IMG/VR virus record: IMGVR_UViG_3300025168_000033
Location: 62,001 to 126,000 of that record
Reading direction: 5' to 3' (one strand)
DNA from: a virus
DNA length: 64,000 nt
The notes below the pieces were generated by a model, which saw only the letters and a program-made list of their open reading frames with translations, was not told where the DNA came from and made no database searches. Of the stretch, positions 18,720 to 63,317 are shown one piece after another; positions within the stretch are counted from its first letter, which is position 1, and the number at the start of each line of letters is the position of its first letter. The translations under genes and the position numbers were made by a program.

Positions 18720-19358
18720 TTAATCAATACCCATTACGTTATTAAAACCTTGCTGTTTCAAAGCTTTTATTCCGTTATCTTGATGTCTTTTATTTTCACC
18801 TTCAACTTCGTAATATCCGCCATTTGCATCAACATGAGCTTTAATTTTTTTAGATGCAAAGTATTTTTCAATATATAATAATTGTTGAGACCTATTAAAA
18901 TCTCTAAATTCATTATGATCGAATTCCATTGATTCATTTACGAATCTTGAGAATTTCATAAATGCTGATTCATCTACTTCATCCTCGTCTTCATCATCAA
19001 TATCGCCATTTAAGCTATGAATTTTATCACCACTTCCGTTAGGTAATCCACCGTCGGCTCCAGGCATTGAAGTAGGACCCATTCCATTTACATTTCCTGG
19101 AGTTACTTCTTCTATCAATTGATCATTATCAAATTTTATGGCTGAAGTTGTATTATAATCACTAATTCTTGATTTAATACCATAAAGATCCATCATCATT
19201 TTAACAACAGTAGAACCTTTCTTTTTATCTTTCAATTGAAAGTAAGTTACTTTATCATTTGATTGAGATATTATTTGACTCACATATTGACTCAACTCTT
19301 TAGAAATATCTAATGCTGAATCACCTGATAATTGTCCTTTAAAGTTTGATTCGTTCAT
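18720..19358 (-). CDS. Unknown protein with an internal capsid tag
   Basis: This 212-residue protein is not recognised. The first half is followed by a Gly/Pro-rich linker (about 88-112) and an acidic run (DDEDEDEVDE). At residue 134 an internal Met begins MKFSRFVNES, a full copy of the shared tag with a predicted cut after E142. The last 70 residues would be released as a separate domain containing GGYYEVEGENKR. The ATG of Met134 is at 18959-18957 and could also act as an independent start. The arrangement suggests fusion of two genes. It is the last member of the tagged cluster, before a hairpin. Confidence 0.65.
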   Translation of the reverse strand: MNESNFKGQLSGDSALDISKELSQYVSQIISQSNDKVTYFQLKDKKKGSTVVKMMMDLYGIKSRISDYNTTSAIKFDNDQLIEEVTPGNVNGMGPTSMPGADGGLPNGSGDKIHSLNGDIDDEDEDEVDESAFMKFSRFVNESMEFDHNEFRDFNRSQQLLYIEKYFASKKIKAHVDANGGYYEVEGENKRHQDNGIKALKQQGFNNVMGID

Positions 19359-19364
19359 ATTGAT

Positions 19365-20102
19365 TTATTTTTTATAAGGAGCTCTAACATCGATTTTACC
19401 GCCACTTAATTCTTTTGCAACTTTATCAACCTGTTCTGGTTCAATCTTTGGCATATCCGCTCTTGGTGGTGCACCTTCTGGTGGTCCAACTCTTTGAATA
19501 GCAGCTAAGGCTTTTGCAATTGTAGCTTCACCTCTTTTTTCAAACCAAGCAATAGCTTTTTCTTTATTATAGAATTTTTTATCCATTCCTTCACCGTCAT
19601 AGATTGCAGCTTTAACATTATCCATAGTTGATGTGAAAATATTAGCATCTCCAGCAACAGCTAGACCTCTTTTATTTCCTAATGCATCTCCGGCAGCTCT
19701 AAGAACTGGAACTAAATCACCAATATTTAATTCAGATTGTACTCCTGTTACTTTTGCAGAAGGATTGTTGAACATTGTAGCAGCCCATCTATGATGACCA
19801 TCTAGAATTCTGTTATCTTGTGAAATAACAGCACCAAGATCTCCACCTTCAACTCCTACAATAGCCATACTTAATGCCTTAGCTAAATAAACTGCATCCT
19901 GTGATGGCTTTAATGATTTAGCTGGAATAGAAGCTTTTTTAGTTACTACTACATCGTCTTGAGTATCTCCATCTTTTTTACCAGCTTTAAAAAATTCCTT
20001 GTCATTTTTATTTCCAGGATTTGGAAATTTTGATGGATCGATTTCTTTAGTTTTTAAGCTTTCATTAATAACGAATTGCTCAAATGATATTAATTTTTTC
20101 AT
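19365..20102 (-). CDS. ParB-like protein with capsid-targeting tag
   Basis: This 245-residue protein begins MKKLISFEQFVINES, with a predicted cut after E14. Residues 50-110 resemble the N-terminal ParB/Srx-like fold: SLKPSQDAVYLAKAL, then the hallmark RILDGHHRWAA at 98-108. The remainder is Ala-rich and then Pro-rich (GPPEGAPPRADMP). ParB-like domains bind or cleave nucleic acid or act as CTPases or nucleases in other phages. The role here is unknown. It has a late-promoter-like element 17 bases upstream, consistent with packaging late in infection and injection into the next host. Confidence 0.65.
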   Translation of the reverse strand: MKKLISFEQFVINESLKTKEIDPSKFPNPGNKNDKEFFKAGKKDGDTQDDVVVTKKASIPAKSLKPSQDAVYLAKALSMAIVGVEGGDLGAVISQDNRILDGHHRWAATMFNNPSAKVTGVQSELNIGDLVPVLRAAGDALGNKRGLAVAGDANIFTSTMDNVKAAIYDGEGMDKKFYNKEKAIAWFEKRGEATIAKALAAIQRVGPPEGAPPRADMPKIEPEQVDKVAKELSGGKIDVRAPYKK

Positions 20103-20144: not shown

Positions 20145-20459
20145 TTAGTCATAAACTACTGCACCATCATCACCATAAGTAAATACTGCGGTTTCACCTT
20201 CTAGATCTAAAGCAATTACATCTTCATCAGGCTCTAAAAAATCTCCGGCAGTTCCAGAATCGTCATATTTTTTAAGGTCTTTCATCTTGCCTTTAGCAAT
20301 AACATTATAGACATCTCCATGATAATCCTCAGCTTTATCACCAACCTTTACTTTATTAAAAGGCTTTATTTTTTTAGCTTCATTAACTTCATCGTTAGTT
20401 GATTCTTTTAAATTATAAGATTCATTTACAAAATCTTCAAATGATTCAATATTTCTCAT
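20145..20459 (-). CDS. Small tagged protein with two processing sites
   Basis: This 104-residue protein starts MRNIESFEDFVNES (cut after E13). It has a second site EVNE/A at E27, so maturation would leave about 77 residues. The mature part starts AKKIKPFNKVKVGDKAEDY and looks like a small SH3/KOW-type beta barrel with acidic ends. Its VGD...VYNVI pattern is similar to modules in the adjacent 741-residue polyprotein-like gene. It probably arose from the same module family. Function is unknown. Confidence 0.65.
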   Translation of the reverse strand: MRNIESFEDFVNESYNLKESTNDEVNEAKKIKPFNKVKVGDKAEDYHGDVYNVIAKGKMKDLKKYDDSGTAGDFLEPDEDVIALDLEGETAVFTYGDDGAVVYD

Positions 20460-20478: not shown

Positions 20479-20488
20479 TTATTTATCT
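20479..20488 (-). promoter_or_regulatory. Late-promoter-like element AGATAAATAA
   Basis: AGATAAATAA on the minus strand, 19 bases before the ATG of the 104-residue tagged gene and overlapping the stop codon of the gene upstream of it. Confidence 0.55.
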
Positions 20489-22713
20489 TAAAGTGATCTA
20501 TATTTCTTTTGAATAGCCTGCCAAACTTTTTCTGGTGTAGTATTTCTACCGGTAGCAAATTTATTAACGCTAGTAGAACCACGTTTATTAGGTGAAGTTA
20601 TTGATAATTGAATGAAAGGTTTGTCACCAATTTCGTTATATTGGAATGCCCATATTAATGCTAATTCATCAACTTTAACAGTGAATTCTACTGCACCATA
20701 AAAGTTTTCTTTTACATCTTCAACCTTCATATTTCCTAAATATTTGTCACCCTTTAATAAAAATTCCGTAAAAGATTTATACCAGTCGTTCGATCTTTTT
20801 TCAAATTCTGACAACGGCCATGCTTCATTAACAGATTCAAATTTCAGATTTTGAGTAACTTCTGGTGGAAGATCGTTATATTCAGAATCAATATATTTTT
20901 CTACATTATCTGGGTCTTTAACTGCTGTTAATAGTGCTGATTCTCTTTCGTCATCACTTAATTCATCCCATTTAATTGATTTTTGAGATTTCTCGTTTAA
21001 AAATTCGTCTAGTGATTCCGCAACTAATTTCATGTTTGGCTTTGATTTTGTCTGATTAATATTATCAAATATTCGTTGTCCAAATTTAGAAAGTTGATAT
21101 GTTTTTTCACCGCTTTCATTTTTTGATACTTTAAAGTAATTCATGTTTGATTTGAACCATCGAGTTTGATTAACTGATTTTCCTAAATCTTCTTCAACAC
21201 GAATTAACATATCCTTGATTTGTTCTTCGGTCATTATATTGTTACCAATATATTTGATAATTGAATTACGTAAGGGTGCTTTTTCATTTATACGTCTAGC
21301 ATCATAAATTCCATATTTACGTTTAATAGTATGTTTAGCTTCATTAACACTAACTATCTTAGCTTGTTTTATACGTGATTTATTTACTAATTCTTTTTCT
21401 TTCGTTTCAGCTTCTTCTTTAGTTTTAAATATTCCAGATTTAGCATTTTCCCCATCTTGGGTTTTATATTCAACTCTAAAACCTTCCCCTGATTGATTAA
21501 CTGATTCAGTTATAGAATTCAACATTTCCTGTTTACTAAATACTAAGCTTTTTGGATGACTTGAAAGTTCAAATGTAGTACTATACATAGCACTAAGTTT
21601 AGCACCAATTTCTTTACCATTTTTATCTGTTACGATATATTCATTGAAAGCGTTTGACTTTCTACCATAATCAGTAACAGTATAAACATTAGTATCTGTA
21701 TTAAATTTAGATCCGATTTCTATTTTATTGAAAATTTTAGTACCTAGCATACTGATTTTACTTCCAGAAATAGTTCCCTCATTTAAGTCATAAGATTCAC
21801 TAAATAATCTTCTACCTGTTTTATCTTCTAGATGTAATTTTGCTTTAGGATATTTCTCTTGCATTACATTAAATGTAGCAGGAGCAACATCTGGAGTAGA
21901 AACTGGTTCTTGATGAATTACTTTGCCATCTTGTATAACTACAATTACTGCTGGATAGCTTCCTTGAGTTGCAGCTTTATATACTTTACGTCTAGATGCT
22001 TCAGTAACTAATGATTCATCCATTACCATATATTTAGATGGAACTATAAATTCTCCTTGTCCACTTTTTACAATCATTCCTTTATTACCACGAGTCATCT
22101 TAATAACTTTATAAACATCGTCATAATCTAAAGAAACACCTTCCTTATCTAGAATTTCTTCAACAAAATGTGGAGCTCCCAGAACTACAAAATCACCTTT
22201 CTTGAATTTAGATTCGTTAATTTCTTTATTTTCCTCATTTGCTAAAGGATTAGGAATAGTAATTGATTTACCTTGATAAAATCTCTTTTTTAGTTTATCA
22301 ATAGTATCATTCTTCTTTAAATAGTAAGGATGCTCATATTGATCTGAATCATCTCCTACAATAAGAATAATATGTTCTCCTTCATCAGAACTATATATTT
22401 TAAAGTCTGAACCTAATACTTTACCTTTTATATTCTTTTTAGCCTCATTTACAGATTCGGTATATAATATTTCAGAATCAAAATTATATTTAGGACCATC
22501 TTGTTCAGCATCTTGTACATCTATAGTTCCGTTTTTATTAATATTGATAACTCTGAATTCAGTTCCAACTGAGGCACCTTTATGCATTTCTTCATCTCTA
22601 TCATCGTCACCAGTTTGATATATTACAACAATATCACCGACTTTTGATCGTTCGCCATTGTAATATTTTGCAGATGCCTCATTCAAGAAGTCTTCAAATT
22701 TTTCTATTGCCAT
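20488..22713 (-). CDS. Internal head polyprotein with repeated protease sites
   Basis: This 741-residue protein starts MAIEKFEDFLNEA (cut after E12). The same kind of site recurs at VNE90/A, INE167/S, VTE238/A, LNE312/G, ITE403/S, VNE458/A, LNE574/K and VNE630/A, with a possible INE477/K. The pieces would be about 78, 77, 71, 74, 91, 55, 116, 56 and 111 residues. Several begin with small beta-barrel patterns (SKVGDIVVIYQTG; KKGDFVVLG). The piece ending at E574 finishes with MKLVAESLDEFLNE, a complete internal tag. The protein reads as a chain of tagged modules to be cut by the prohead protease. No enzyme motif is seen. Processing is inferred from the T4 gp21 consensus (L/I)-x-E. Confidence 0.75.
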   Translation of the reverse strand: MAIEKFEDFLNEASAKYYNGERSKVGDIVVIYQTGDDDRDEEMHKGASVGTEFRVININKNGTIDVQDAEQDGPKYNFDSEILYTESVNEAKKNIKGKVLGSDFKIYSSDEGEHIILIVGDDSDQYEHPYYLKKNDTIDKLKKRFYQGKSITIPNPLANEENKEINESKFKKGDFVVLGAPHFVEEILDKEGVSLDYDDVYKVIKMTRGNKGMIVKSGQGEFIVPSKYMVMDESLVTEASRRKVYKAATQGSYPAVIVVIQDGKVIHQEPVSTPDVAPATFNVMQEKYPKAKLHLEDKTGRRLFSESYDLNEGTISGSKISMLGTKIFNKIEIGSKFNTDTNVYTVTDYGRKSNAFNEYIVTDKNGKEIGAKLSAMYSTTFELSSHPKSLVFSKQEMLNSITESVNQSGEGFRVEYKTQDGENAKSGIFKTKEEAETKEKELVNKSRIKQAKIVSVNEAKHTIKRKYGIYDARRINEKAPLRNSIIKYIGNNIMTEEQIKDMLIRVEEDLGKSVNQTRWFKSNMNYFKVSKNESGEKTYQLSKFGQRIFDNINQTKSKPNMKLVAESLDEFLNEKSQKSIKWDELSDDERESALLTAVKDPDNVEKYIDSEYNDLPPEVTQNLKFESVNEAWPLSEFEKRSNDWYKSFTEFLLKGDKYLGNMKVEDVKENFYGAVEFTVKVDELALIWAFQYNEIGDKPFIQLSITSPNKRGSTSVNKFATGRNTTPEKVWQAIQKKYRSL

Positions 22714-22730
22714 AATATAATTTTCTTTTA

Positions 22731-22740
22731 TTATTTATCT
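22731..22740 (-). promoter_or_regulatory. Late-promoter-like element AGATAAATAA
   Basis: AGATAAATAA on the minus strand, 17 bases before the polyprotein ATG; it contains the stop codon of the preceding gene. Confidence 0.55.
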
Positions 22741-23585
22741 TCAGATAGTTCGTCTTTTAATTGAGGATAATATTGATGTGTAGTTGTATCAGTCATGGAT
22801 TTGAATGATTTTATATCATCTTCTATTAAAGCTTTACGAACTTTAGATGCACTAATATTATCATCAGTACGTTTTATTTCATGAGCTTTAAATTCTGGAT
22901 CTACATTTAAATCCAATCTATAAGAATCTTTTTGAATTTGACCGCTATAGGCTTTTAATCTATCTGATCCAGTACCCCACAAAATAGGCTCATATTCAGG
23001 ACGTAATTCATTATAAATTGTATCTATACCCGCTCTTGAAATAGTTCTGAATCCTTCTATAAATTTATGTTTCTTTGCAAGATCGTTAAATATTTGCTCT
23101 ATTAAACCTTCACTAAACGGTGTTTTTTCCTTGTTAATTTTCTTTGCACGCACCATAAGTACTATTACAGGATATCCATTTTCTTCGGACAAAGATTTAA
23201 GAACTTTTATATGTCCTAGCGTCGGAGGTTGAAAACGTCCCGCAATAATATTAACTTTTTTATTGCCAGGTTCTGTTGAATCTACCTTTAAAGCTTCATT
23301 TAAAGATTCAGATATTTTTCCGGTTTTAGATACTTTATAATATGTAGGTATTTTATCCCAATCTTTACCGTTAGTTTTTATGCCTGAATACATTTGATTT
23401 TTATCACTTTTCCATGCACCACCAGTTCCATCTTTATATTTGATCATGGTTGGTGTTTCTTCATAAAACCACCAATCGCCATCAGAATGCTGTGCTAAAT
23501 ATCTTGCCCAATCTGGGATATTTTTAAATTTAGGAAATTGTTTTCCTTCATTTATGAAATCAAAAAATCTTTTGAATCTATTCAT
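22731..23585 (-). CDS. Tagged NMN-adenylyltransferase-like enzyme with extra N-terminal domain
   Basis: This 284-residue protein starts MNRFKRFFDFINEG (cut after E13). An 84-residue Trp/Tyr-rich module follows and ends in a second site SLNE/A at E97. From about 110 it is an HxGH-superfamily nucleotidyltransferase: GRFQPPTLGH at 116-125 and ISASKVR at 244-250 are the two ATP-binding motifs. Family members make NAD+ or activate small alcohol phosphates. Substrate cannot be assigned. Cutting at E97 would free the enzyme in the head. It is one base from the ligase-like gene upstream in the transcript, so the two may act together (inference). Confidence 0.7.
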   Translation of the reverse strand: MNRFKRFFDFINEGKQFPKFKNIPDWARYLAQHSDGDWWFYEETPTMIKYKDGTGGAWKSDKNQMYSGIKTNGKDWDKIPTYYKVSKTGKISESLNEALKVDSTEPGNKKVNIIAGRFQPPTLGHIKVLKSLSEENGYPVIVLMVRAKKINKEKTPFSEGLIEQIFNDLAKKHKFIEGFRTISRAGIDTIYNELRPEYEPILWGTGSDRLKAYSGQIQKDSYRLDLNVDPEFKAHEIKRTDDNISASKVRKALIEDDIKSFKSMTDTTTHQYYPQLKDELSEDK

Positions 23586-24835: not shown

Positions 24836-25990
24836 TTATTTTATTTTCATTCCAATCATCATATTCTTATCGGAAATACCAATAACAATACCATCTCTTT
24901 CATATTCAGTTCCGTCAGCATAAGCACCAATTGGCTTAACATATTTAAATCCAAGATTTTTAATAAGTTTTGAAGTAATATCAAATCCTAGACTGGATTC
25001 AAATCCAGTAACTTTACCAAATCCAGTAACAAATCCTGTTTTAGCTGCAATTATACCTTTAGGATTTTTTTGAAATGCTTCAGGAGCAACAGTCTTAAAT
25101 TCTTTTACAAATGCTTTCCATATTGGATCACTAGATAATGTTTTTCTGTCCCAAGTAAAATCACGAATCATTGAAAAACTATCCGATTCAAATACTTCTA
25201 TTCCATTATCACCATAGAATTTTTTAATTATATCGTAAAGATCGTCCTTTGCATCTTGATTATTTTTTATAAAAACTTTTAACGGTCTTATTAGATTTAA
25301 AAAGTTTTTTCTACTAAGCTTCATTTCTTCATCTATAAATTCAGACTCATTAATAGATTTAAGATTTAATTCAATTAAAGTATTAACACCATCTCTATGA
25401 ACCTCAGAAAATTTGACATCACCAAAATCAGATAAAATATCTTTTAAAATTGTTGTATCTAATTCTATTATCTCATCTTTTAAATGTTCATAAGCAGAAG
25501 TATAAAATTGTAATTTGCCACTTCTTAATCGTGCTATTAATATTCCAATATTTTCAACTGCTAGCCAGGCATGCCTATTTCTTTTGCCTCTTCGACTTAC
25601 TTTACGAGCCATTAATTCTTCTATTAAAAGCGCTTGAAATCTAGAACTAGCCTGATCAACACCACTATAAGTAATATTATCTGTTACAAAAAAATCATAT
25701 AGTGTATCAGCTTTAAAAGTTTCATTTAATGGAAATGACCATTGTCTTGATGACATTGGTGCATAAGGAGCTAATTTCTTCCATGCCTTTTCAGCATCTT
25801 TACGTTTACCAGCTTTATCCAGATCCTGTATCATTTGATTAGTTGTTTCCCAATCAGCAATACCAGCCTTATAAGCTCTCGGATCATCACTCATCATATA
25901 AGTCCAATCCATAGATTTTAATTGTGCCTCAAGATCCTTGATAGTAACTCTTTCATTTAAGAAATCGTCAAACTTTTTAAATTGTCCCAT
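24836..25990 (-). CDS. Tagged unknown protein with three processing sites
   Basis: This 384-residue protein begins MGQFKKFDDFLNER (cut after E13), with further sites PLNE/T at E90 and SINE/S at E215. The predicted parts are 77, 125 and 169 residues. The first contains helices rich in Trp and Lys. The second has a basic patch VSRRGKRNRH near 131-140. The third ends with a Gly/Phe-rich beta segment (GFVTGFGKVTGFESSLGFD). None matches a family I know. Adjacent genes carry the same tag, so it is likely an internal head protein. Confidence 0.65.
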   Translation of the reverse strand: MGQFKKFDDFLNERVTIKDLEAQLKSMDWTYMMSDDPRAYKAGIADWETTNQMIQDLDKAGKRKDAEKAWKKLAPYAPMSSRQWSFPLNETFKADTLYDFFVTDNITYSGVDQASSRFQALLIEELMARKVSRRGKRNRHAWLAVENIGILIARLRSGKLQFYTSAYEHLKDEIIELDTTILKDILSDFGDVKFSEVHRDGVNTLIELNLKSINESEFIDEEMKLSRKNFLNLIRPLKVFIKNNQDAKDDLYDIIKKFYGDNGIEVFESDSFSMIRDFTWDRKTLSSDPIWKAFVKEFKTVAPEAFQKNPKGIIAAKTGFVTGFGKVTGFESSLGFDITSKLIKNLGFKYVKPIGAYADGTEYERDGIVIGISDKNMMIGMKIK

Positions 25991-26004
25991 TGTAATTTAT
26001 AATT

Positions 26005-26943
26005 TTAATTCCATCCGCCAGAATAGTAATCACTACCACCTGAAACTTTTGGTATTTTGAATGTTTTTCCGTTTATTGTAAATGTAGCTGTGTAAAAATA
26101 TGTAGTAGAAAATGAAGAACTAACAACTGCGCTATGCTCACTTCCTAGCATCTTGATTTCTTTTACATCTATTTTATCCCACTTAACATCATCACCTTTT
26201 AGTATAATTTCTTTAATGTATGCAAATGGTTTAGCCATTGGAGGTTGAACCCATGCCAATTTACCAAGATTAGTTCCGTTTCCACCAGGTCTATCTGCAA
26301 CTTTATACATGTCTGTCTTATATTCTATTAGTTCTCTGATATTGAAATCCGTCCACCAACTTCTTGCAAATTGAGCCATCTTTGGAATTCCAAATTTTAA
26401 TATATGAGCCTTCTCAACATCAGTAAAAGTTTTAATTATATCATAAAGCTTGTATTTTTTGTTAAGTTCACGTCTATCTTTACTTGCAAGACCAGACCAT
26501 AATGCATATATAATCTCATCATCGTCATTATCTTCAATTAGCTTAGTATATGAAGCTGCTAATCTAACTGCTTCTTCCTTGCTTCTAGGATCTGCATTAT
26601 TACGATGTGCATCTTTATAATCATCACCAAAGTTTCTGAATACCTCTGTAAATTCCTTTATCATCTTTGAATTTGGTGTTCTACCTGTTCCAGCTGCAGC
26701 TAATATATCATTTTTATCGTTTTCACCGAGTTCAGCAAATTTAGGATCTTTAACAAGCTTTGCTAATGTTATATTTGTATCAATTCCAGCATTTTTTAAT
26801 GACCAAGCAAGATCTCCTTGTTTACTTTCAACATCACCTTTACTATAAGAATTCTTTATTGTATAAACTTTCTTTACAACTTTCATATAATCGCCGTAAT
26901 AAGCTTCGTTTAAAAATTGTTCATAGGATTGTATCTTCTTCAT
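26005..26943 (-). CDS. Tagged unknown protein (312 residues)
   Basis: The protein begins MKKIQSYEQFLNEA, predicted to be cut after E13. The tag is identical over 14 residues to that of the next upstream gene. The body is helical to about residue 200 and beta-rich at the end, finishing in a Gly/Ser/Tyr segment (VSGGSDYYSGGWN). No catalytic motif is recognised. A 45-base DNA repeat covers the tag codons, so the tag was copied or exchanged recently compared with the rest of the gene. It probably belongs to the injected set. Confidence 0.65.
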   Translation of the reverse strand: MKKIQSYEQFLNEAYYGDYMKVVKKVYTIKNSYSKGDVESKQGDLAWSLKNAGIDTNITLAKLVKDPKFAELGENDKNDILAAAGTGRTPNSKMIKEFTEVFRNFGDDYKDAHRNNADPRSKEEAVRLAASYTKLIEDNDDDEIIYALWSGLASKDRRELNKKYKLYDIIKTFTDVEKAHILKFGIPKMAQFARSWWTDFNIRELIEYKTDMYKVADRPGGNGTNLGKLAWVQPPMAKPFAYIKEIILKGDDVKWDKIDVKEIKMLGSEHSAVVSSSFSTTYFYTATFTINGKTFKIPKVSGGSDYYSGGWN

Positions 26944-26946
26944 AAT
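26902..26946 (-). repeat. Tag-encoding direct repeat, copy 1
   Basis: These 45 bases cover the tag codons of the 312-residue gene and match 27343-27387 with one mismatch. Downstream of the tag the two genes show no similarity. Confidence 0.85.
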
Positions 26947-26952
26947 ATGTAT

Positions 26953-27384
26953 TTATTTGTTTAGGTCTTTATTAAAATCAATGTAACTATCACGATCTGT
27001 AAGTTTTTTCATTCCTTGAACCATATCTCTAGTTAATGATTCTTTATTATCGTATGCAATAACTAAAAAGAAGTCTGCGTTGTTACCACTGTCATTTTGT
27101 CTATCTGAAGATTCCCATCCCGGACCCCATTTCACCCAAGATCCATTTACTGATTCAAGATTTTTCACATCCTTAGTATAAAGATCACCAGCAGCATTGG
27201 TTGTTAACAAATATGCAAAGTCTTCTTTATATTTGAAGTTTTTGTCTTTTGGTTCATAAACATCGAATCCGAGTTTCTTAAGACCTTTTTTGATATTAGG
27301 CATATCACGTATAATGTAATGTGGTTCATATCTAGAAGTATTAGCTTCGTTTAAAAATTGTTCATATGATTGTATCTTCTTCAT
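26953..27384 (-). CDS. Tagged unknown protein (143 residues)
   Basis: The protein starts MKKIQSYEQFLNEA (cut after E13). The mature 130 residues contain aromatic-rich strands (WVKWGPGWESSD near 82-93) and DFFLVIAYDNKES. No family is recognised. It has a late-promoter-like element 18 bases before its ATG and a terminator beyond that, so it begins a new transcription unit. It shares its tag DNA with the adjacent 312-residue gene but not its body. Confidence 0.65.
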   Translation of the reverse strand: MKKIQSYEQFLNEANTSRYEPHYIIRDMPNIKKGLKKLGFDVYEPKDKNFKYKEDFAYLLTTNAAGDLYTKDVKNLESVNGSWVKWGPGWESSDRQNDSGNNADFFLVIAYDNKESLTRDMVQGMKKLTDRDSYIDFNKDLNK

Positions 27385-27387
27385 AAT
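27343..27387 (-). repeat. Tag-encoding direct repeat, copy 2
   Basis: Second copy of the 45-base tag repeat, with one mismatch to 26902-26946. It covers the first 14 codons of the 143-residue gene and a few bases upstream. Confidence 0.85.
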
Positions 27388-27402
27388 CGTACTTTTGTTT
27401 TT

Positions 27403-27412
27403 TTATATATCT
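27403..27412 (-). promoter_or_regulatory. Late-promoter-like element AGATATATAA
   Basis: AGATATATAA on the minus strand, 18 bases before the ATG of the 143-residue tagged gene and downstream of a terminator. Confidence 0.6.
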
Positions 27413-27457
27413 TTGCACTATCTATAGTTAAATATAAACAATTTTTTTGACATAAAA

Positions 27458-27486
27458 AAATCTGGAAGTAACGAATTTCCAGATTT
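27458..27486 (-). terminator. Intrinsic terminator
   Basis: A perfect 10-bp stem AAATCTGGAA/TTCCAGATTT with a 9-base loop. A run of seven T follows on the minus strand. It ends the transcript of the 309-residue nucleotidyltransferase and separates it from the next late unit. Confidence 0.85.
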
Positions 27487-27525
27487 AAATGGTCGTAACC
27501 ATCCCGGTCCTAAAATCGGTTTATT

Positions 27526-28455
27526 TTATGCCATTTCACTTGGATAAGGAAATCCAGCCTTGACAATTCCTTCTTTATATACTTTTATTATTTCACTTAA
27601 TTTGTGTTTGTGAATAAATTTAGATGAATTCATCCAGTTCCAAATAGATTCGAATGAATTTAAATCATTCACCTTTCCTTCGGGTCCTAAAACAAATTTA
27701 GCAATATCATCAATATTTTTTGTAATAGCTTTGTCTGCACCTTTAATTGTAGATGCATTTTTCTTTCTTCCCCTTTTACCGTCAAATGATTTAGTTTGTA
27801 TTTTTAAACCGTCATGTGCAGTAAGAGTATATTTTTGAAAGTCTTTTACTAATCCTTCATATTCACCGCCAAATTCTTTCTTATAGATATTTGGTTCACC
27901 ATCAAAATCGATATTTTGAATAATATCATAAATAAGTTTAGTTCTATAAACTCCTTTATATTTTGATTCTTCTTTTGTAAAGTCTGGTGAATGATAAATG
28001 AATGTTGCTAATTTAATATCATCAACAACCATAAAATCTATTTGAACAAATTTATCTGTAATCTTGCCTTTTTCATCATACTGTGGAAATTTAATGTTTG
28101 TAACACCTAATCCTTTAGTAAGATTTGTTTCATATTTAGGAAATGTTTTTGTTAGTTGATTATAAACTTCCGTAACAACATCGCCAAATGATAATTTATT
28201 TGCAGCACCATAAACTAATCCGTTTATTGAAATATCAATATCACCAGATGTAGATCCAGCTTTCTTTTTAAATGTACTTCCTAATACACCATATTCATCT
28301 TTATTTAAACCAAGAACTGGCTTGATAAATGTCTTTAATAAAACGTCAAATGTCGGTTTTTGATATTCCGCTGGAATAGGATGAGTGCCATTAAATGCAT
28401 TACCTGATTCCAGTAATCTTTCTTCAACAAAAGCTTCAAATAATTTAAATTCCAT
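27526..28455 (-). CDS. Nucleotidyltransferase-fold protein, probably tagged
   Basis: This 309-residue protein has the pol-beta nucleotidyltransferase signature: GS at 59-60, D72-I-D74 in SGDIDISI, and the third Asp, D140, in FVQIDFMVV. Family members add nucleotides to RNA, proteins or small molecules. The N-terminus MEFKLFEAFVEER is a divergent tag, and an L-L-E/S site follows at E16. A Lys/Arg patch (DGKRGRKKNAS) near 225 could bind nucleic acid. A similar enzyme is encoded at 33765-34829. The substrate is unknown; a toxin-like or tRNA-directed role is possible but unproven. Confidence 0.65.
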   Translation of the reverse strand: MEFKLFEAFVEERLLESGNAFNGTHPIPAEYQKPTFDVLLKTFIKPVLGLNKDEYGVLGSTFKKKAGSTSGDIDISINGLVYGAANKLSFGDVVTEVYNQLTKTFPKYETNLTKGLGVTNIKFPQYDEKGKITDKFVQIDFMVVDDIKLATFIYHSPDFTKEESKYKGVYRTKLIYDIIQNIDFDGEPNIYKKEFGGEYEGLVKDFQKYTLTAHDGLKIQTKSFDGKRGRKKNASTIKGADKAITKNIDDIAKFVLGPEGKVNDLNSFESIWNWMNSSKFIHKHKLSEIIKVYKEGIVKAGFPYPSEMA

Positions 28456-28470
28456 TTATTGATTATATTT

Positions 28471-28896
28471 TTAAGCTATTTTATACAATGCCTTATATAC
28501 TGTATTAATTTGCTTTTCTAATGTATTTAACTTTTTAGGATCCATTTTTTTAATAGATTCAGCAACCCAATACTGTGTACCTTCATGACCTAAAAGAGCA
28601 ACTAAGTCACCGAATGCTTTCATAGTCGAACCTGCATTAGCTTCATTTACTACATCATTAACCGATTCATAAACATCGATTTCTGGATTTTTTGATTTAA
28701 TTAATTTCTTTTCCGCCGAGTCAATAGCATCACTTAAATTATCCTGATATTCAGGATTAATAAATCCTTCCCAATCACCAGAATTTTGTAATTCAGTTAA
28801 TCCAACTATACAGGCTTCTATTTCCATCTCTTCTAATTTAATATTAGATGCTTTACCCTCAGTTAAAAAGTCTTTATATGCTTTTATATTTTTCAT
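28471..28896 (-). CDS. Tagged small protein with two processing sites
   Basis: This 141-residue protein starts MKNIKAYKDFLTEG (cut after E13), with a second site VVNE/A at E85. The two predicted products are about 72 and 56 residues. The first is acidic and helical; the second contains FGDLVALLGHEGTQYWVAE and a Lys-rich C-terminal helix. No family is recognised. It follows the 147-residue acidic-repeat gene in the same transcript and precedes the nucleotidyltransferase. Confidence 0.6.
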   Translation of the reverse strand: MKNIKAYKDFLTEGKASNIKLEEMEIEACIVGLTELQNSGDWEGFINPEYQDNLSDAIDSAEKKLIKSKNPEIDVYESVNDVVNEANAGSTMKAFGDLVALLGHEGTQYWVAESIKKMDPKKLNTLEKQINTVYKALYKIA

Positions 28897-61838: not shown

Positions 61839-63317
61839 TTACTTTACCTTGATTCCGTATGTTTTATCAGACTTAGCTAAGGCTGTATCGTATTTTCCAT
61901 CAAACCCGCTTACAACAAAAGTTTTTTGTGGATTGACAACGACTCCTATTTTTTCCATCAATTCCCTATTAATAAGCATAGGAGTAGATTTAGATGAACG
62001 ATCAACAACGCTAAAATGCATTTTACTATATGATATTCCTCTAAATTTAATATCAAGTTCTATTATAGGACGTTTTGTAACCGTATCACCTACTTCGGCA
62101 TTAGCGTAACCAACAATTTTTGATTTCATTTTTTTATTTCCAGCAGACCAATTTAAATAGCCATTTTTTTCTGACATTTTATCCGCATGAACTGATGACG
62201 ATTTAGTACCGTTTCCACTATCAAATTTAGCAACATATTCACCAAATCCAGTAAGATTAACAACTTCCATATATCCTATTTCAGTAACATTGACAGACCA
62301 ATTAGATTTATCTTTTATGAAATCTATAATATCTTGTAATATAGATTTTCCAATAACTTTTTTAATTCCTTTAGTCCCAGGAGAAGCATTTACTTCAAGT
62401 ATATAATTCTTTTTAGTTTTATCATCAACAATAATATCAACACCACACCAATGACATCCCATAGCATCTGCAGCCTTAACTGCTAAATTAATTTGTTCTT
62501 CAGTTAATTTTACATTTTCAACAGATCCACCAAGTGAATGATTAGTTCTAAAATCTTTTTTGTCTCCTCTATTACGTCGCATATATCCAATGATTTTAAC
62601 ATTGTCTTTATTGTTTCCGTGATAGTCAAATCTTTTAGTTAAGACCTGAATTCTAATATCGTAATCCGAATCAATTTTTTCTTGAATTAAAGTTTCAGTA
62701 TCAGAAAGTTTCCACATTGTCTGTAAAACAGATTTAAGCGATCCTTGTGAATCAATAATAGAAACACCTATTCCTTGAGATCCTGAAAGAGTCTTTAAAA
62801 TTATAGGAAATTTTCCACCTATTTTTTTAATTGCATCATCTAATGAATCTATACTAGGAACTAATGCCGTTCTAGGCGTCGGTAATAAATGCTGCTCTAG
62901 TTTTTGTGCAGTTAAATATTTATTTTCACAATCCAGGATTGAAGATAATGAATTAATGCAGAAGAATCCATTACTTTCAAATAATGATAGAATTCCACGA
63001 GTATATGTGTTTTTTACAACACCACGTCTAGCTATTATAACAGTATTTTCTTTATTAATAACAAATCCTTTTGATTCACCTTTATTTGTTAGCGTAATAT
63101 TTCCATCATCATCTGGATCACTAATAGTACAGTCTTTTAAGCAAAATAAAAATCCGTTCATTCCAGAATTTACAGCCTTTTCAATTAAAAACTGTGGTGT
63201 ATCTTGTGAATCTGGATCTACTGGCGTATTTGTCATTACAACAAGATTTAATTTATTACCTAGCTGAACTGCTTCAGTTAGCATATCATCAAATCTCTTG
63301 AACCTTATATTTTGCAT
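61839..63317 (-). CDS. RimK-like ATP-grasp fused to retropepsin-like domain, capsid-tagged
   Basis: This 492-residue protein starts MQNIRFKRFDDMLTEA (cut after E15). Residues about 100-330 form an ATP-grasp ligase like RimK: FPIILKTLSGSQGIGV binds ATP, ETLIQEKI and DIRIQVL follow, and the metal-binding end is YILEVNASPGTKGI. RimK adds glutamates to ribosomal protein S6; other members make peptide-like bonds. Residues about 345-490 resemble the RimK-associated peptidase (COG4067-like), with AKFDSGNGTKSSS as the D-S-G loop and TPMLINRELM. A tagged ligase-peptidase suggests protein modification upon injection (inference). Confidence 0.75.
   Translation of the reverse strand: MQNIRFKRFDDMLTEAVQLGNKLNLVVMTNTPVDPDSQDTPQFLIEKAVNSGMNGFLFCLKDCTISDPDDDGNITLTNKGESKGFVINKENTVIIARRGVVKNTYTRGILSLFESNGFFCINSLSSILDCENKYLTAQKLEQHLLPTPRTALVPSIDSLDDAIKKIGGKFPIILKTLSGSQGIGVSIIDSQGSLKSVLQTMWKLSDTETLIQEKIDSDYDIRIQVLTKRFDYHGNNKDNVKIIGYMRRNRGDKKDFRTNHSLGGSVENVKLTEEQINLAVKAADAMGCHWCGVDIIVDDKTKKNYILEVNASPGTKGIKKVIGKSILQDIIDFIKDKSNWSVNVTEIGYMEVVNLTGFGEYVAKFDSGNGTKSSSVHADKMSEKNGYLNWSAGNKKMKSKIVGYANAEVGDTVTKRPIIELDIKFRGISYSKMHFSVVDRSSKSTPMLINRELMEKIGVVVNPQKTFVVSGFDGKYDTALAKSDKTYGIKVK

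Follow-up and report, generated by a model that had tools for sequence, protein, structure and literature searches.

A putative head-cargo polyprotein of an uncultured T4-like phage, with modules shared among phage contigs

The stretch of DNA analyzed here (64,000 nucleotides, hereafter the window) comprises bases 62001-126000 of a 166,532-base virus record, IMGVR_UViG_3300025168_000033 (hereafter G000). A 741-amino-acid ORF, 22713..20488 in window numbering, occupies exactly the interval 20488-22713 given by the first-pass annotation and runs on the minus strand, embedded in a run of genes that start with a short tag. The tags end in a motif resembling prohead protease sites, (L/I/V)-(N/T)-E/(A/S/G/K), and the same motif recurs along the 741-residue chain. 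The features of the locus, with the evidence for each, are as follows.

20488..22713, minus strand: putative head-cargo polyprotein gene, 741 aa (ORF, sites, tag)
22678..22713, minus strand: start tag MAIEKFEDFLNE/A, residues 1-12 (form as in 32 other start tags)
22444..22677, minus strand: module 1, residues 13-90, end TESVNE/A (sites only)
22213..22443, minus strand: module 2, residues 91-167, end KEINE/S (sites only)
22000..22212, minus strand: module 3, residues 168-238, end ESLVTE/A (sites only)
21778..21999, minus strand: module 4, residues 239-312, end YDLNE/G (found in other contigs in varied contexts, with a border at the site; AF2)
21505..21777, minus strand: module 5, residues 313-403, end NSITE/S (sites only)
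21340..21504, minus strand: module 6, residues 404-458, end VSVNE/A (78% identical stretch in L010; AF2)
20992..21339, minus strand: module 7, residues 459-574, with a winged-helix-like part, an internal tag and a doubtful motif at 477 (relatives in many contigs; AF2; VIA-align)
20992..21033, minus strand: internal start-tag-like sequence MKLVAESLDEFLNE/K, residues 561-574 (sequence)
20824..20991, minus strand: module 8, residues 575-630, end ESVNE/A (relatives in L167, L237 and L239)
20491..20823, minus strand: module 9, residues 631-741, C-terminal (sites only)
22731..23585, minus strand: tagged nucleotidyltransferase (CTP_transf_like), tag FDFINE/G, second site SESLNE/A (cyanophage relatives)
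20145..20459, minus strand: tagged gene downstream of the polyprotein gene, second site DEVNE/A (sequence)
19365..20102, minus strand: tagged gene, FEQFVINE/S (sequence)
18720..19358, minus strand: gene with an N-terminal part related to a module of the L005 polyprotein (45% identity over 83 aa, E 2e-23 in a single comparison)
24836..28896, minus strand: four more tagged genes, 24836-25990, 26005-26943, 26953-27384 and 28471-28896 (tag search)

All nine sites reported by the first-pass annotation, after residues 12, 90, 167, 238, 312, 403, 458, 574 and 630, are present in the product. The site at residue 12 belongs to the start tag, and the other eight are internal and delimit nine segments. 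A strict search for [LIV][NT]E[ASGK] returned 10 matches, these nine and RINE/K at 477, whereas 10,000 shuffles of the protein averaged 0.5 and never exceeded 5. Most sites had been described as following an S-rich or E-S approach; a literal E-S stands before roughly half of those inside the chain (90, 238, 312 and 630). The full internal tag MKLVAESLDEFLNE does occur at residues 561-574 and is shaped like the start tags, possibly as a trace of gene fusion; tag-like ends are found in related polyproteins as well.

The N-terminus of the chain resembles a capsid-targeting sequence that ends in a prohead-protease-like site, and it shares its form with 32 other tags in G000: a regular expression identified such a tag (for example, MKKIQSYEQFLNE/A) at the start of 33 of the 200 ORFs in the record, the polyprotein included. 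In 32 tags, P3 is occupied by L, I or V; N is found at P2 in 25 and S, A or G at P1' in 26. At their internal sites, the window protein and the family (203 sites) match the tags from P3 to P1', a likeness for which the motif search itself partly selects. A RimK-like ATP-grasp protein encoded at 61839-63317 of the window also has a start-tag-like N-terminus, MQNIRFKRFDDMLTE/A, and RimK-like genes are annotated in Melnitz too. Shine-Dalgarno-like cores are scarce in G000 (within 20 bases upstream of 5 of the 158 minus-strand ORFs longer than 100 aa), which would fit a Bacteroidota host.

Searches of Pfam, PHROGs and PADLOC assigned the 741-residue protein to no known family at usable significance, and neither Pfam nor PHROGs gave a significant match to known scaffold families; tblastn against 50,697 phage records produced no match. 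Over the Pfam cut-off, the window protein has no domain, and DUF3008 and DUF5824 are found in relatives only, with the proviso that many described polyvalent domains may lack a Pfam model.

The machinery that might process such a chain is encoded in the same phage. An S77 prohead protease (Pfam PF03420, E 7e-13) lies at G000:57898-59736, outside the window, fused in one gene to a scaffold-like, site-rich part; in T4, gp21 and gp22 are separate genes. The portal gene adjoins the protease gene and was identified as T4-type through relatives, and the Gp23-type major capsid protein (E 6e-36) begins MYGHKMINE/A, that is, with the same motif. Long ORFs of the protease-scaffold type are also found in huge-phage records (L057:19968-21866, L058:20001-22100 and L059:19998-22421). 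The 27 relative records (in one of which, G001, the gene is the same as in the window) include 12 with Portal_T4 and 10 with S77, all 10 being among the 12; many of the 27 are fragments, and in G004 and G007, which have Portal_T4 without S77, the contig ends near the portal gene. Polyprotein ORFs lie between the portal and protease genes in L031 and directly after the portal gene in L005, and in L010 the same place between portal and protease is taken by a gene that contains module 6 and falls below our multi-site cut. In whole or nearly whole records, multi-site ORFs number 2 in G000, 7 in G005, 6 in G014 (the protease gene being counted in these three), 2 in G007 and 1 in G017.

These gene neighborhoods bear on the place of cleavage, which is not readable from sequence, so that another Glu-specific protease could conceivably cut the chain in the cytoplasm, and the modules would then function inside the producing cell rather than the head. 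We regard this scenario as very improbable, given the capsid-targeting form of the start tag and the adjacency of the chains to head genes in L005, L031 and L010.

In relatives, modules are gained, lost, reordered or found alone, with their borders at sites, in line with the modular architecture proposed in the first-pass annotation. Queried with the whole protein, the IMG/VR contigs yielded nine loci, one of which carries the same gene at 100% identity; seven of the remaining loci match within residues 198-331 only, and one within residues 410-454 only. A profile of module 4 retrieved 11 loci, including, once more, one with the same gene; across these loci, this module follows various neighbors or, in L009, comes straight after the start tag; the genome_contigs collection yielded no relative of module 4. 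Modules 4, 6 and 7 have relatives, as does module 8 in L167, L237 and L239, loci that were fetched later; for modules 1, 2, 3, 5 and 9, none was detected among the 7,276 ORFs compared. In other phage contigs, the pieces between sites occur singly, in a different order or as stand-alone tagged genes. The stand-alone tagged gene G000:5386-5655 (89 aa) corresponds to an internal module in L005, L028, L029, L031 and L033, with its tag site aligned on an internal site of those chains. The polyprotein design is not unique to this phage and recurs in many uncultured phage contigs, the longest chain in the set having 1315 aa and 14 strict sites and running off the end of its contig. The chain encoded at L033:3811-5784 contains three near-identical acidic repeats (DLNLPAEELESDLEDTTPEV...) that resemble none of the other modules seen.

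The coincidence of module borders with sites was assessed in two ways. Partial blastp matches in 32 proteins provided 323 ends, of which 26% lie within 5 residues of the motif as given in the first-pass annotation, against 9% for circularly shifted sites (15% in the most extreme of 1000 shifts); with a wider motif, the values are 39% and 16% (at most 24%). The set behind this test consisted of 36 multi-site ORFs, among which were the protease-scaffold gene and some other ORFs. For the second test, 74 modules taken from 11 polyproteins served as queries against the compared ORFs, and 53 of them had a non-self relative, giving 316 distinct instances. A site lay no more than 3 residues from the left border in 246 of 311 cases and from the right border in 199 of 289, whereas random positions in these ORFs gave 14%; the left border is the cleaner test because the query includes its own right-hand site, and the instances are not independent because many contigs are related and some loci were fetched by their linker DNA.

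A translocation can be followed directly in L009 and L047, which are syntenic, mostly at 80-90% DNA identity (73-94% in matched blocks), and encode orthologous polyproteins of 1008 and 925 aa, respectively. The first, middle and last parts of the two chains are common, and two adjacent modules have been relocated: residues 611-697 of the L009 protein correspond to 148-234 in L047 (94% DNA identity over 266 bases), and residues 529-617 correspond to 228-316 (90% over 262 bases). The matches between the relocated modules end in linkers, within 6 residues of a site.

An AF2 model of the 741-residue protein, built from eight sequences, has a mean pLDDT of only 52.7, with three confidently predicted parts: residues 241-310 (module 4; block-mean pLDDT 76-96), 411-460 (module 6; 74-93) and 481-550 (module 7; 81-93). 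These are the parts that have homologs in the alignment, and they are modeled as three separate domains. Confidence falls at sites 238, 312, 403 and 458 and, around site 574, over residues 556-580; the rest of the model, including the five modules without relatives, is mostly below pLDDT 60. For modules 4, 6 and 7, accordingly, the confident domains end at or near sites, as the first-pass division of the chain implied. The alignment used was A4, in which three of the seven fragments have stray ends; alignments A2, A6 and A7 were set aside, as shuffled module fragments had been placed on wrong columns. A second AF2 model, of the L009 polyprotein from 3 sequences, was uninformative (mean pLDDT 35.5). 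In a VIA-align comparison, residues ~470-560 matched mostly winged-helix proteins, the best Z score, 9.4 to a winged-helix regulator, being close to the background described for the tool, so that it provides a fold hint for module 7 and no function. The predicted structure of module 7 looks like a winged helix, though not beyond doubt. Foldseek with the window model found nothing at E 0.001 or better, and the module-4 profile had no meaningful match among PDB sequences (best E 0.4).

The tenth strict match, RINE/K at 477, deserves separate consideration. Module-7 relatives start at the equivalent of site 458, where they have a site followed by a conserved KRRYT-type stretch, and continue across position 477; one of the nine relatives listed (L055) keeps RINE at this position, and the other eight have no such motif. 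The model places the motif in a helix (469-489), at the margin of its confident region. Residues 459-476 are below pLDDT 50, and the confident part of module 7 therefore begins beside the motif, at about residue 477, some 19 residues after site 458 (block 471-480 averages pLDDT 49). With the motif missing from most of the relatives listed and the module spanning position 477, we think it unlikely that 477 is a real border.

A motif of four residues can arise by chance, and the match at 477 looks like a chance or unused site, so clustering by chance alone might be invoked for the whole series. We reject this explanation, to which we assign a negligible probability: the shuffled proteins never reached the observed number of sites, both the blastp ends and the module borders gather at sites, and the L009/L047 translocation points the same way.

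At the DNA level, the linkers around the sites of relatives are unusually constant (GAATCAGTAGTTACTGAAGC). Among 41 ESxVxE linkers, found in seven of the nine relative polyprotein genes examined, codon pairs for the same residue are identical within a gene in 648 of 744 cases (87%), compared with 56% expected from codon usage. In four relative records, VV is encoded by GTAGTT in all 15 linker occurrences, compared with 154 of 657 elsewhere, and ES by GAATCA in 22 of 26, compared with 238 of 898 elsewhere. The 20-mer GAATCAGTAGTTAMTGAAGC matched at least 120 IMG/VR stretches; in the 80 of these loci that are listed, the ESVV(T/N)E frame is the longest open frame for 104 of 104 20-mer matches, and 68 of 79 ORFs contain three or more sites (wide motif). 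The linkers of the window gene itself are less alike, with two matches to a degenerate ESVNEA sequence that differ at 2 of 17 bases. The constancy of the linker DNA suggests that, in the relatives, the linker may double as a recombination seam; common descent of linkers copied along with their modules would look the same.

Linkers conserved as DNA would also suit a multi-domain effector that is packaged intact, after the manner of polyvalent proteins, the linkers being uncut, flexible joints or recombination seams; phage and plasmid proteins of 2-15 domains are described in PMC5512222. We consider this distinctly improbable, since the linkers keep the P3-P1' pattern of the tags, the capsid protein and the scaffold sites (a pattern for which the motif partly selects), and since Pfam detects no peptidase family in the window protein or ten related chains. 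The chain shares features with polyvalent proteins such as P1 DdrB and N4 virion RNAP: according to PMC5512222, these combine many domains in one polypeptide and are in part predicted to be packaged, and its authors themselves draw an analogy with polyproteins. The three confident domains predicted for the window protein agree with the presence of several distinct domains per chain. Processing of polyvalent proteins, however, is predicted in that source to involve embedded zincin-like peptidases, whereas the sites observed here fit a separate prohead protease.

A more serious competitor, still unlikely in our assessment, is a disposable core or scaffold protein that, like T4 gp22, gp67 and gp68, shapes the prohead and is then cut to fragments that leave the head. 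In T4, gp21 cuts after L/I-X-E, and the core proteins are reduced to multiple fragments, which are mostly removed (as described in PMC9026906); long SPN3US propeptides are cut several times (as reported in PMC10052503), and the protease-scaffold fusion of the present phage is itself rich in sites. A disposable core would account for the many sites but not for modules that are conserved, shuffle between genes and exist as stand-alone tagged genes; some of these modules are confidently modeled, and one resembles a winged-helix domain. Furthermore, the scaffold role looks filled by the protease-scaffold fusion gene.

We conclude that the gene most likely encodes a head-cargo polyprotein that is cut by the prohead protease and whose modules are exchanged between genes and phages. 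This agrees with the internal-head polyprotein proposed in the first-pass annotation, to which, at the sequence level, the encoded S77 protease, the motif shared by the scaffold part and Gp23, and the module borders at sites lend support. The scheme that we infer extends to cleavage, packaging, delivery, recombination at linkers and the role of the modules in the host. The N-terminal tag would carry the chain into the prohead core, as T4 capsid-targeting sequences do, and the S77 protease would cut on the C-terminal side of the Glu in the (L/I/V)-(N/T)-E sites to release about nine small proteins of 55-116 residues. These would remain with the DNA and pass into the next host during infection. 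The modules would be interchangeable cassettes, which recombination at the linkers would allow to spread, be swapped and become fused to stand-alone tagged genes. With less assurance, we lean toward the broader proposal that a large uncultured T4-like group employs this strategy, in which a single tag serves up to about 14 mini-proteins released in equal amounts, and a linker of ~20 bp acts as both protease site and recombination seam, so that cassettes are reassorted.

Phage-injected proteins act in early host takeover and in countering defence, and many of them are unknown; a polyprotein cut by the prohead protease would explain how many small proteins are delivered under a single tag. If this is the case, phages reassort injected host-takeover or counter-defence proteins as cassettes, the site-to-site interval would provide a sequence rule for excising unknown mini-proteins, and the linkers conserved as DNA make cargo-gene exchange directly testable.

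In the open-access literature searched, we found no description of a phage head-cargo polyprotein, and several known systems share parts of the design. The T4 internal proteins IPI, IPII, IPIII and Alt have an N-terminal tag of ~10 residues and small, diverse cargo and are cleaved after L/I-X-E by an S77-type protease, gp21, as described in PMC9026906 and PMC3012670. The present phage likewise combines an N-terminal tag with an S77 protease, a T4-type portal and Gp23. T4, however, has one gene per cargo protein, whereas here a single tag heads a chain that has up to 14 strict sites, and the window protein comprises nine segments, with three confident domains. In SPN3US and phiKZ (gp245/gp175), the prohead protease also cuts after Glu, and there are ejected proteins and multi-site propeptides (PMC10052503, PMC9026906). 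Of the 14 SPN3US sites reported in PMC10052503, however, 13 remove N-terminal propeptides, and the pertinent sections of PMC10052503 and PMC9026906 describe no chain of retained modules.

Cultured Kyanoviridae (HTVC008M, Melnitz, S-SSM7 and S-CREM2) have similar tags, such as MQGFKTFLSE/A and MKNFSSFLTE/A. A terminal module of the L033 chain also occurs in a 462-aa Melnitz protein (E 1e-10), and Melnitz carries in fused form a stretch that HTVC008M has as a separate gene. Unlike the chains described here, none of 299 ORFs of at least 100 aa in five stretches from these four Kyanoviridae reaches the site density of the polyproteins.

The tagged gene 22731..23585, which encodes a cytidylyltransferase/NMNAT-like nucleotidyltransferase, has cyanophage cytidylyltransferase genes as distant relatives (24-28% identity among the matches listed), and its product is a candidate injected enzyme. 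NMNAT-like nucleotidyltransferases have been detected in the virions of S-CREM2 and S-SCSM1, in reports whose authors warn of possible carry-over (PMC10665884, PMC9602691). The S-CREM2 enzyme, which begins with the second of the tags quoted above, is 25% identical to the product of 22731..23585 over 179 aa (E 4e-7, single comparison). Across S-CREM2 proteins, exclusive of gp130, which is cut by the end of the stretch, detection in the virion does not go with a loose site among the first 22 residues, which is present in 4 of 19 detected and 6 of 28 undetected proteins.

Six stretches from huge phages, Lak phage and pT24 contain 7 multi-site ORFs among 226, four of them at the protease-scaffold locus and the other three at L057:13129-14982, L059:14021-15310 and L060:11312-12619. 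Finally, residues ~177-290 of the protein encoded at L004:8375-12118 have relatives in 35 phage and archaeal-virus records, and among the 20 of these matches that are listed, some coincide with features whose annotation is prohead protease, portal or major capsid protein.
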